This document shows, one piece after another, positions 15,995 through 21,607 of a DNA stretch of 43,619 nucleotides; the stretch's first letter is position 1; every line of letters starts with the position of its first letter. Location: NCBI GenBank assembly GCA_022843265.1, contig JALHNZ010000027.1, forward strand, positions 1 through 43,619, written 5' to 3'. The stretch comes from Gemmatimonadaceae bacterium (lineage in GTDB: Bacteria > Gemmatimonadota > Gemmatimonadetes > Gemmatimonadales > Gemmatimonadaceae). The position numbers and the translations under genes are program-made. The notes beneath the pieces were generated by a model. That model worked only from the letters and a program-made list of their open reading frames with translations. It ran no database searches and was not told the DNA's origin.

Positions 15995-17964
<1,970 letters not shown>

Positions 17965-18045: not shown

Positions 18046-18127
18046 CGACTGTCACATCATCAGCTGCTACTTCAACTGCCACATCAACTGCCACATCAAC
18101 TGCCACATCAACTGCCACATCAACTGC
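18046..18127 (+). repeat. 12-bp minisatellite CAACTGCCACAT
   Basis: Four perfect 12-bp copies run from 18073 to 18120, followed by a partial fifth copy to 18127. A diverged copy (10 of 12 matches) lies at 18046-18057, separated by 15 bases that look like a decayed copy. The array is direct and has no spacers. It is in a non-coding gap. Confidence 0.9.
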
Positions 18128-18273
18128 ATTTACCACGGAGACACGGAGGCACGGAGAACGGCACGCGGGGTCTGGGCACGTTGCATTAACTCAAAATGAT
18201 GATGTCCGCATCAGTGACGCCGCCCGTCGCAACACGCCGTTCTCCGTGTCTCCGTGTCTCCGTGGTCAATGCA
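18125..18273. repeat. Large inverted repeat of CACGGAG units
   Basis: The left arm (18125-18161) and right arm (18237-18273) are reverse complements over 37 bp with two mismatches, around a 75-bp centre. Each arm contains three CACGGAG heptamers spaced 8 bp apart. A third, decayed hairpin with the same words lies at 18305-18333 (GACACG and CGTGTC arms). With the minisatellite this fills the 386-bp gap between groEL and the next gene. No convincing coding sequence is seen in it. It resembles a palindromic mobile or REP-like unit. Confidence 0.85.
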
Positions 18274-18349: not shown

Positions 18350-19024
18350 CTACGCCGGCACCGTCTCGTGATGAATCTCCGACACGTAACTCCGCACCGG
18401 CAACTTCTGCGCCTTGGTCACGGTTTCCGTGTCCATCAAGCCGGAGATGAGTGGTCGCAGCAGACCATCATGCGAGTCGTACACCATGCCGTGAATGATG
18501 GGCCGCTTTCCCCGCGACCACGCCCGCTGAATAATCGGCGTGCGCGCGAGCTGGAACACCTGCTTGACCACGTTCAACTCCACGAGTCGGTCTTCACGCG
18601 ACTGTTCATCCGGCAGAGCGGCCAGTTCTTCAGCGTGACGCAACCTGAGTTCGCGCACCACATGGAGCCAATGATCCATGACGCCGTGACCCATCGCTCC
18701 CATCGCTGCGTGCACTCCGCCGCATCCATAGTGGCCACTGATGGCGATGTGTTTCACATCCAGCACCTCTACTGCGTATTCAATGACTGAAAGCGTGTTG
18801 AAGTCGTTGGGATGCACCTGGTTCGCAATATTCCGATGCATGAGCACTTCACCCGGAAGCGTGCCAGTGATGGACTCACTTGGAATGCGCGAATCGTGGC
18901 CGCCGATGAACAGAAAGTGCGGCTGCTGACGAGCCGATCGCCGGTCGAAATATCCGGGATCGGTGGCCCGCATGGACTCGGCCCACTTGCGGTTGTTCTC
19001 GAAGAGATGGAGGAACTGCTCCAT
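18350..19024 (-). CDS. Beta-carbonic anhydrase homologue with altered zinc site
   Basis: Beta-carbonic anhydrases interconvert CO2 and bicarbonate. The 224-residue protein aligns over its whole length, including PGEVLMHRNIANQV, LSVIEYAVEVLDVKHI, GHYGCGG and ELNVVKQV. Its numbering matches the well-known E. coli enzyme without gaps: Asp44, Arg46, His98 and Cys101 are all present. The first zinc ligand, Cys42, is however Gly42, followed by His43: the motif reads IGGHDSRIP instead of IGCSDSR. His43 might replace the ligand, or the protein may have lost zinc and activity. Its ATG lies 2 bases after the SulP stop, so the two are co-transcribed. This suggests a role in bicarbonate handling with the transporter. 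Confidence 0.9.
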   Translation of the reverse strand: MEQFLHLFENNRKWAESMRATDPGYFDRRSARQQPHFLFIGGHDSRIPSESITGTLPGEVLMHRNIANQVHPNDFNTLSVIEYAVEVLDVKHIAISGHYGCGGVHAAMGAMGHGVMDHWLHVVRELRLRHAEELAALPDEQSREDRLVELNVVKQVFQLARTPIIQRAWSRGKRPIIHGMVYDSHDGLLRPLISGLMDTETVTKAQKLPVRSYVSEIHHETVPA

Positions 19025-19026
19025 GA

Positions 19027-20694
19027 TCAGTGTCCGGAAGAAGAGGGGCCGGTCAGCTCGGGAACGCCGACCAGTCGATAGTCGATTTCTCGCAGCTGCG
19101 CGGTGGTGCGGAAATCATGAAGAATCTCAAGGACGTCGTGATCGAAACGCTTGGTGTTGCGGCCATCGATCTCAATTCGTGATCCCGGCGCCAATGCATC
19201 GAGCGTCTGCTCGATATTCGCTTTGCTCAGGAAGGTGACCTGATCCGGCAAACGGTAACGCTGCAGCACGGCATCGGGCGAGCTCACGGGGTTGAGCGCG
19301 GGCTGGTACAAGTACTCTTTCAAAATGAACGTCACGCCAACCAACATGCCAATCGCGATTCCGATGAGCAGATCCGTGAGCACGATCGCCACCACCGTCG
19401 CGGCGAACGGAATGAACTGGCTCATTCCCTGCTTGTAGGACTGCTTCCAGAGCGCGGGCGCGGCCAACTTCCATCCGGTATGCAACAGGATGGCGGCGAG
19501 CGCGGCGAGCGGAATGTAGTTCAGCGCTTTCGGGATTGAGACCACCGCAATGAGCAACAACATGCCGTGCAGCACGGCAGACCAACGCGTACGGCCACCC
19601 GCGCCGATGTTCGCTGCCGAACGCACGATCACGCCCGTGATGGGAAGCGCACCGACAAATCCAGCCAGCGTGTTGCCGATACCCTGGGCTAACAACTCTC
19701 GATTGGTGTCGGACTCGCGTTTGTACGGATCCAGCTTGTCCGTGGCCTCAAGGCTGAGCAGCGTTTCGAGGCTCGCAACGATGGCAAGCGTTACGCCCAC
19801 GCGCCACGTTTCAGGATTACTGAGCGCCGAAAAATCAGGCAAAATAAAGAAGGTGAGCAAGTCACGCGCCGTTTCCGGAAGCGGCAACTGCACGAGGTGC
19901 TCAATACCGAGCTGCCAATCCGGCGCTGCAGAGCCGAACGCGAAGTTCATGCCTATTGCGGCAAGCACAACGACAAGCGGTCCCGGCAACATCTTGATTT
20001 TCTTCAGCGCGGGAACGCCCGCCCAGATGAACAGAATGGCAAGCGAAATCAGACAAATCAGTGCTGCACCAGGCTGGATCGAGTTATAGGCGTTGATGAG
20101 CGCACTGAATGTGTTGGAACCATCCGGCTGGATAAACGCTACATCGCCTTCATAATCTGCGTCATATCCAACTGCGTGCGGCAGCTGTTTGAGAATCAGA
20201 ATGACGCCGATGCCGGCCAGCATGCCCTTGATGACCGCCGACGGGAAGTAGTAACCAATCACACCCGCGCGCAGCACGCTCAGCACGATCTGGAGCAGGC
20301 CGCCAATGATGACCGCCGTGAGGAACGCCGGGAACGATCCGAGCGCGGTGATGCCGGCCAGCACGATGGCCGTAAGTCCTGCGGCCGGTCCGCTCACCAT
20401 GAGGTGCGAGCTCGAGAGCAAACCTACGAGAACACCACCGATCACGCCGGCGAGCAATCCAGAGGAGAGTGGAGCACCCGAAGCAAGCGCCACGCCGAGA
20501 CACAACGGAAGCGCCACCAGCACCACCACGATCGAGGCGGGCACATCCTGCTTCCAGCTTTCCGAAAACGGCGGCGTCGAGCGATCTACGGGCGGAGCGC
20601 CTCCAGCGCCGTCATTGGACGATGACCCAGCGTCCGGCGAGCCGGCGGTTCGGCGTCGACGGGGGGGAACGTTCACGGCACTCGTATCAATCAT
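19027..20694 (-). CDS. SulP-family anion (probably bicarbonate or sulfate) transporter
   Basis: This 555-residue membrane protein begins with a Pro/Gly-rich cytosolic arm of about 45 residues. The SulP core follows: DVPASIVVVLVALPLCLGVA, SGPAAGLTAIV, VIKGMLAGIGVILILKQLPH, SLEATDKLDPYKR, LLAQGIGNTLAGFVGALP and TGVIVRSAANIGAGG. A C-terminal STAS-like domain ends it, reading EIDGRNTKRFDHDVLE, without the usual phosphorylatable Ser/Thr of classical STAS loops. ATG 20694 is chosen because AGGAG lies 8 bases before it; a TTG six codons upstream would leave no such site. The carbonic-anhydrase partner directly downstream favours bicarbonate as substrate (inference). Confidence 0.9.
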   Translation of the reverse strand: MIDTSAVNVPPRRRRTAGSPDAGSSSNDGAGGAPPVDRSTPPFSESWKQDVPASIVVVLVALPLCLGVALASGAPLSSGLLAGVIGGVLVGLLSSSHLMVSGPAAGLTAIVLAGITALGSFPAFLTAVIIGGLLQIVLSVLRAGVIGYYFPSAVIKGMLAGIGVILILKQLPHAVGYDADYEGDVAFIQPDGSNTFSALINAYNSIQPGAALICLISLAILFIWAGVPALKKIKMLPGPLVVVLAAIGMNFAFGSAAPDWQLGIEHLVQLPLPETARDLLTFFILPDFSALSNPETWRVGVTLAIVASLETLLSLEATDKLDPYKRESDTNRELLAQGIGNTLAGFVGALPITGVIVRSAANIGAGGRTRWSAVLHGMLLLIAVVSIPKALNYIPLAALAAILLHTGWKLAAPALWKQSYKQGMSQFIPFAATVVAIVLTDLLIGIAIGMLVGVTFILKEYLYQPALNPVSSPDAVLQRYRLPDQVTFLSKANIEQTLDALAPGSRIEIDGRNTKRFDHDVLEILHDFRTTAQLREIDYRLVGVPELTGPSSSGH

Positions 20695-20779
20695 CCAGTT
20701 CACTCCTGGCAAAAAATCAAAAAAGGCAAAGCTAAAATTACTCGATGCCGGGTGATCCCGTCTACGAGCAACTGCCGAT

Positions 20780-21607
20780 TTACAGAGAGAGCTCCAGCTG
20801 CGGAGCCCGAACGACTACGGCGCCATGTCCCGAAACTGGACCCAGCGGGACGCGCTGCGAGGCAGCTACCACACGCGATACCAGCGCCGCGGCAACACGA
20901 CCACGCGCGGCAAGCGCACGGCCCACCGTGTGTACGGCCTGCTCGGGCGTATTGTTGGTTTCACTGAGGTGTGCGAGGACGATGGCCCGCAGCCCTTTGT
21001 GCGCGCAGGCTGCGATAAACGTCGCCGCCTGTGCATTGCTCAGGTGCCCCGTACTACTACCTATTCGCTTTTTAAGCATCCACGGATATGGTCCGGCCAT
21101 CAGTTGCTCGAGATCGTGATTGGCCTCGACAACGAGCATATCCAACCGCTCGAATGCCGACGGCAGGCTCTCTGGCACATGCCCGAGGTCGAGTGCGATG
21201 CCGAGTCGCTCGCCAGACCCCTGCTGCTCAAACACGAACGCCGAGCAATCACTCGCGTCGTGCGGCACGGCGTACGACGTACCGATCACATCACCCACCG
21301 ACCACGACTGCCCGTGCGTGATGGCACGTACCGGCACGATCGGTGTGGGTAGCTGCGCGAGTGTCGCCGACGTCGCAAACAGTGGCCAACCCCAGCGCGC
21401 GCAGGCCGGTATCGCGCCCTGCGCATGGTCGACATGTTCGTGTGTGAGCACGAGCGCGCTGATGGATTCCGGGGCGCATCCCAGCTGCGCCAGTCGCTGC
21501 GCGATGGTGCGGACGCCAAATCCAGCGTCCACCAGAATGCGCGTGCCTCCGGCGTCCACAAGCATCGCGTTTCCGCGGCTGCCGGTACCGAGCACGCTTA
21601 CGCGCAC
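20780..21607 (-). CDS. Metallo-beta-lactamase-fold hydrolase, YycJ/WalJ-like
   Basis: The 275-residue protein has the MBL fold start VSVLGTGSRGNAMLVDAGG and the metal-binding motif LTHEHVDH (His56, His58, Asp60, His61). AVPHDASDCSAFVF, EANHDLEQL and STGHLSNAQA match the YycJ/WalJ subgroup, where members are thought to act on DNA ends or other phosphodiesters. The later NHD and GHLS motifs are typical. The GTG start is 39 bases after the preceding gene. The exact substrate cannot be read from sequence. It is followed by an 85-bp gap before SulP, AT-rich for this genome, that may hold a promoter but shows no convincing boxes. Confidence 0.85.
   Translation of the reverse strand: MRVSVLGTGSRGNAMLVDAGGTRILVDAGFGVRTIAQRLAQLGCAPESISALVLTHEHVDHAQGAIPACARWGWPLFATSATLAQLPTPIVPVRAITHGQSWSVGDVIGTSYAVPHDASDCSAFVFEQQGSGERLGIALDLGHVPESLPSAFERLDMLVVEANHDLEQLMAGPYPWMLKKRIGSSTGHLSNAQAATFIAACAHKGLRAIVLAHLSETNNTPEQAVHTVGRALAARGRVAAALVSRVVAASQRVPLGPVSGHGAVVVRAPQLELSL

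Follow-up and report, generated by a model that had tools for sequence, protein, structure and literature searches.

A β-carbonic anhydrase homologue with Gly-His in place of the zinc ligand Cys42, fixed in one genus of Gemmatimonadaceae and linked to a SulP transporter

The β-carbonic anhydrase (β-CA) homologue described here, encoded in a Gemmatimonadaceae genome, from a genus that lives in soil and water, directly beside the gene of a SulP anion transporter, has glycine in place of the zinc ligand Cys42 and histidine in place of the small residue at position 43. It is a variant within the known β-CA fold family, and the trait is genuine, conserved, and derived: the substitution, its fixation throughout a genus, purifying selection on the gene, a burst of change on the stem of the clade, operon-like linkage with SulP, and backup systems likely to hydrate CO2 are all observed. 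This pattern suggests that the metal site has been rebuilt and that the protein does something other than the ordinary conversion of CO2. The reading that we favor, at somewhat short of an even chance, is that of a genus-specific, neofunctionalized partner of SulP that arose from an ordinary SulP-linked β-CA, retains its metal, and has little or no normal CO2 hydration activity.

Identity and fold of the gene product

In the window (the whole stretch of DNA that was analyzed, 43,619 nucleotides), the CA-like open reading frame occupies positions 18350–19024 on the minus strand, which the initial annotation had left unspecified, starts with ATG, and encodes 224 residues. The translation, which reads HFLFIGGHDSRIPSE around the site, followed by ISGHYGCGG (the zinc-site region is also rendered HFLFIGGHDSRIP), is a full-length match to Pro_CA (PF00484, E 7.6e-43, 146.9 bits against a cut-off of 25.7), and the closest solved chains are 1ddz, 4rxy, 5bq1, and 1i6o. 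The AlphaFold2 model (pLDDT 88.7) has the β-CA fold over its full length, with a VIA Z of 25.9 to the H. influenzae β-CA (3mf3) and of 25.7 to 1i6o; its least certain stretch comprises residues 41–50, with a mean pLDDT of 73. Against the E. coli Can equivalog NF007756 (PRK10437), the protein scores 216.7 bits, under the curated cut-off of 251. By sequence and fold it belongs to the β-CA family, and it lacks the full set of zinc ligands that defines the catalytic β-CA class.

Residue changes in the active site

The defining feature of β-CAs is a zinc ion held by two cysteines and one histidine. Asp44 and Arg46 form the catalytic dyad, and in type II enzymes Asp44 also completes the zinc coordination, as a fourth ligand, when the site is closed. 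Residues 41–46 of the window protein are Gly-Gly-His-Asp-Ser-Arg, where β-CAs have IGC(S/A)DSR. The initial annotation had read IGGHDSR in place of IGCxDSR and had assigned E. coli numbers without gaps; both the open reading frame and the alignment bear this out, with Gly42, His43, Asp44, Arg46, His98, and Cys101 falling at the E. coli positions and no gap up to that point. On the minus strand, codons 42 and 43 are GGC and CAC (18896–18901), encoding the Gly-His pair; they are followed by codons 44–46 (18887–18895), in which Asp-Ser-Arg is kept, and by codons 98–101 (18722–18733), which retain the zinc ligands His98 and Cys101.

None of the 105 other homologues aligned, which include stand-alone Can proteins of many phyla, lacks Cys42, and position 43, histidine in the clade, is Ser, Ala, or Cys in the others. 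Thirty-three positions show at least 97% conservation across the 105 homologues, and the clade differs at three of them only, namely Cys42 to Gly, Val47 to Ile (codon 47, 18884–18886, minus strand; Val in 102 of the 105), and Phe61 to Leu (codon 61, 18842–18844, minus strand; Phe in 104 of the 105). In the structure of the Coccomyxa β-CA, Ala-48 and, from the neighboring subunit, Phe-66, equivalent to residues 43 and 61, line the CO2 pocket, and the counterpart of residue 47 forms part of what in the H. influenzae enzyme is the non-catalytic bicarbonate site. The Coccomyxa numbering runs five residues ahead, as set by Asp-49/Arg-51 and Cys-106 against 44/46 and 101 (PMC3230598). Of the CO2-pocket residues 43, 61, 66, and 83, two are changed in the clade (His43 and Leu61) and two are kept (Ile66 and Tyr83). 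The allosteric bicarbonate site of type II β-CAs, formed by Trp39, Gly41, Val47, Arg64, and Tyr181 (PMC3230598), reads Phe39, Gly41, Ile47, Arg64, and Tyr182 in all five proteins of the clade. Taken together, the changes of the clade strike the metal ligand and both pockets, that for CO2 and that for bicarbonate. Since two of the altered positions (43 and 61) lie in the wall of the CO2 pocket and a third (47) lies in the non-catalytic bicarbonate site, ordinary CO2 hydration by a textbook site would be unlikely.

It can be proposed instead that the protein is still active as a carbonic anhydrase, with a new zinc site in which His43, or a shifted Asp44, would take the place of Cys42, and that it acts on CO2 (by hydration) or on bicarbonate brought in by SulP (by dehydration). 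The Asp44–Arg46 dyad, Gln33, Tyr83, His98, and Cys101 are kept in all five proteins (as is Arg64), a retention that would be equally expected of an active enzyme and that, to this extent, counts against the account favored here. However, a histidine at position 43 should fill or polarize the CO2 pocket, which this residue faces in the homologous structure (PMC3230598), and Phe61 of the same pocket is changed too. The strong purifying selection on the CA gene and the preservation of its operon partner SulP, described below, also agree with a working enzyme, which we consider a serious but unlikely solution.

Fixation in the genus and evolutionary history

The five species of the genus, represented by separate assemblies, are all fixed for the Gly42-His43 pair, and the four other CAs are 79–83% identical to that of the window. 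The Gly-His type is also found under three named records of Gemmatimonas sp. and Gemmatimonadaceae MAGs, which are apparently the same assemblies as members of the genus. No GGHDSR was found outside the genus in a DNA pattern scan of 395 genomes of the phylum, and SulP-linked orthologues elsewhere in the family all read IGC(C/A/S)DSR, with Cys42 intact. The initial annotation had asked whether the Gly-His pair recurs in homologues encoded next to SulP; it does so inside the genus, in five of five cases, but not outside it. A search of the open-access literature found no earlier report of a natural β-CA without a zinc cysteine.

The loss of a catalytic ligand is what early decay would be expected to look like in a single genome, and a decaying gene, an assembly error, or a one-off mutation could each have been responsible for the unusual motif. 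Sequencing or assembly error and a one-off mutation are excluded by the presence of both residues, fixed, in five species from separate assemblies, with codon 43 varying synonymously between CAC and CAT. Decay of the CA gene is ruled out by a dN/dS of about 0.1 (0.07–0.14 inside the clade, where dS is mostly above 1 and synonymous sites are near saturation), and the full-length frame and the conserved synteny also speak against it. Explanations of this kind are hardly credible. The initial annotation had already taken the full length and the conserved surroundings as arguments against decay, a view that is strengthened here, and its reservation that the motif might turn out to be a sequencing error, or that Cys might be found in all close relatives, is answered by the other species of the genus. 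The Gly-His change has been held for a long time under purifying selection.

A tree of 110 proteins places the five Gly-His CAs in one clade (SH-aLRT 100), which sits in a 12-member group (SH-aLRT 97) whose other seven members are SulP-linked and read IGCCDSR. Because the clade is nested in this manner, its ancestral state was likely Cys-Cys (IGCCDSR), subsequently changed to Gly-His. In the sister clade (L097, L131, L009, and L099–L102), with its adjacent cysteines, Cys43 would face the CO2 pocket, which raises the possibility that the Gly-His change struck a position that was out of the ordinary to begin with.

On the stem of the Gly-His clade, the CA accumulated 0.55 changes per site, compared to 0.15 in the adjacent SulP (3.7 times more). 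The crown depths of the two proteins are equal (0.163 for CA and 0.171 for SulP), as are the corresponding depths in the sister clade (0.333 and 0.314). CA alone underwent a burst of change on the stem and then returned to a normal rate and constraint, which looks like a change of function rather than decay. Asp44, Arg46, His98, and Cys101 all stayed unchanged over stem and crown (1.24 changes per site), an outcome with a probability of about 0.7% at the mean rate of the protein, a crude figure since conserved core sites are slower than average; their retention would favor a metal that is still bound.

The adjacent SulP gene and the gene neighborhood

The gene of the SulP (SLC26-type) anion transporter, which has a C-terminal STAS-like part, lies upstream of the CA gene on the same strand (19027–20712, minus strand), and the two are separated by the 2 bp at 19025–19026, in agreement with the spacing given in the initial annotation. 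Its Sulfate_transp domain matches PF00916 with 186 bits (E 1.2e-54), and its nearest solved chain is the BicA-type transport domain 6ki1 (E 1.3e-24); the scores fall under the BicA and DauA equivalog cut-offs, and only family membership is assigned. The conserved upstream neighbor encodes a metallo-β-lactamase (MBL)-fold protein (20780–21607, minus strand; fold read from the sequence), and the conserved downstream neighbor is groEL (16324–17964, plus strand), convergent with the CA gene. All five genomes of the genus share this arrangement (MBL-fold gene, SulP, CA, groEL), and linkage of the CA to SulP extends from these five to at least 34 orthologues. No clear matching change was seen in SulP, in which only the interior positions 456 and 480 are fixed in the genus and unlike at least 85% of the other sequences.

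The genome of the window includes a second SulP gene, immediately followed by a different β-CA of the SCIDSR type with its Cys intact (L186, contig C19, about 29.7–31.9 kb, and L003), and two SulP–CA pairs thus coexist in one genome. The spacer that separates groEL from the CA gene contains a 12-bp tandem repeat, CATCAACTGCCA, at 18058–18127 in 5.8 copies (93% match), followed by 8-bp repeats of the CACGGAGA type at 18134–18161 and 18237–18264.

Other likely CO2-hydrating systems in the genomes

The survey of CO2-hydrating systems covered Pro_CA, α-CA, and DabA (PF10070). Four genomes of the genus encode a second, canonical β-CA (Can); the fifth, G004, is without a second Pro_CA but has DabA. 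The profile survey found α-CA in none of the five; DabA is present in three of them (G003, G004, and G002; L187, L188, L190, and L191) and was not found in the genome of the window. Another likely CO2-hydrating system is present in every genome of the genus. In three sister-clade genomes (G131, G111, and G123), the SulP-linked Cys enzyme was the sole system found among those surveyed, without any DabA, in assemblies that are 89–96% complete; G007 has both the Cys enzyme and DabA. The Can of the window genome (L001) comes from another lineage than that of its sisters in the genus (L119–L121), which suggests that the housekeeping Can has been replaced or transferred.

With such backup systems in the genus, the SulP-linked copy could afford to lose its ordinary activity. 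Their presence in all five genomes means that activity is not demanded of this copy, even in G004, where the lack of a second Pro_CA or an α-CA would otherwise support a working enzyme but where DabA is present. The same systems agree with a metal-free pseudoenzyme, a protein that has lost its zinc and whose fold would now regulate SulP, either by binding bicarbonate or in a purely structural manner, after the fashion of the animal CA-related proteins. The disappearance of the otherwise invariant ligand Cys42 is in keeping with such a role, and the animal proteins, inactive yet known to stimulate a transporter, enhance MCT1 (PMC6609565). On the other hand, His98, Cys101, Asp44, and Arg46 have survived a branch of otherwise heavy change, and the non-catalytic bicarbonate site departs from its H. 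influenzae form, with Phe39 for Trp39 and Ile47 for Val47. A metal-free regulator appears to us improbable.

Comparison with known systems

Type II β-CAs, such as E. coli Can (YadF) and H. influenzae HICA, share with the window protein the full-length fold (VIA Z 25.7–25.9, about 2 Å), 41–44% sequence identity, and the residues Asp44–Arg46, His98, Cys101, Gln33, and Tyr83, whereas Gly42 for Cys42, His43, Leu61 for Phe, Ile47 for Val, and Phe39 for Trp set the window protein apart. The SulP-linked β-CAs of other Gemmatimonadaceae (for example, L081/L097) are orthologous to it, have SulP directly upstream, and are about 47–64% identical; in contrast to it they keep Cys42, and the nearest clade, with IGCCDSR, has Cys43 rather than His43. 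Operons and fusions of SulP with CA were reportedly described by Felce and Saier in 2004. SulP–CA operons with an intact enzyme are known, as for β-CA3 of Methylococcus capsulatus, which is encoded with a SulP transporter, and the β-CA has been proposed to handle or move the SulP bicarbonate (PMC11423575). The SulP-adjacent relatives in methanotrophs (L068 and L071), unlike the window protein, have their zinc Cys intact.

Animal CA-related proteins VIII, X, and XI also have a CA fold, with catalysis lost, but theirs is the unrelated α-class fold and they come from animals; the zinc ligands lost in them are histidines. In DabA2 of the DAB2 complex, a β-CA-like active site is tied to a membrane subunit, and CO2 hydration was seen neither in the purified complex nor with purified DabA2 alone (PMC13144422). 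Unlike the window protein, DabA2 keeps its own Cys351/Asp353/His524/Cys539, and its partner is DabB, of the ion-translocating type, not SulP.

Proposed mechanism and implications

According to the account that we favor, a neofunctionalized partner of SulP with its metal retained, the IGCCDSR enzyme of the genus ancestor would have lost the Cys42 ligand and gained His43, along with the replacements of Phe61 by Leu and Val47 by Ile, in an episode of rapid change limited to the CA gene. The metal would most likely still be held by Asp44, His98, and Cys101, and His43, expected to point into the former CO2 pocket, may be a substitute ligand. Such a site would be akin to a permanently "closed" state, with little or no normal CO2 hydration, and the role of the protein would be to modulate the movement of anions or protons through the neighboring SulP, a partnership deduced from linkage, which is no proof of contact. 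Precedents for this account are the inactive animal CA-related proteins, with their effect on MCT1 (PMC6609565), and DabA2, with a β-CA-like site that shows no CO2 hydration in the purified complex (PMC13144422). The initial annotation had offered two readings, a bicarbonate-binding partner or an enzyme with a His-based metal site, and the present evidence modifies each of them. Tentatively, and at well below an even chance, the protein could represent a Gly42/His43–Asp44–His98–Cys101 metalloprotein built on the β-CA fold in a SulP operon, with either a new chemistry or a role in gating the transporter by metal, protons, or bicarbonate; its site would have been rebuilt, not merely lost, which would make it a bacterial analogue of the CA-related proteins of animals.

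The clade is a natural experiment in which Cys42 has been replaced while the rest of the site is kept and purifying selection continues. It could reveal whether the β-CA fold works with another metal site, or else a route that leads from a carbonic anhydrase to a transporter accessory. Because the likely ancestral form, IGCCDSR, survives in sister genera for comparison, the clade is also relevant to a long-standing question, namely whether the carbonic anhydrases found beside SulP are enzymes or binding partners.
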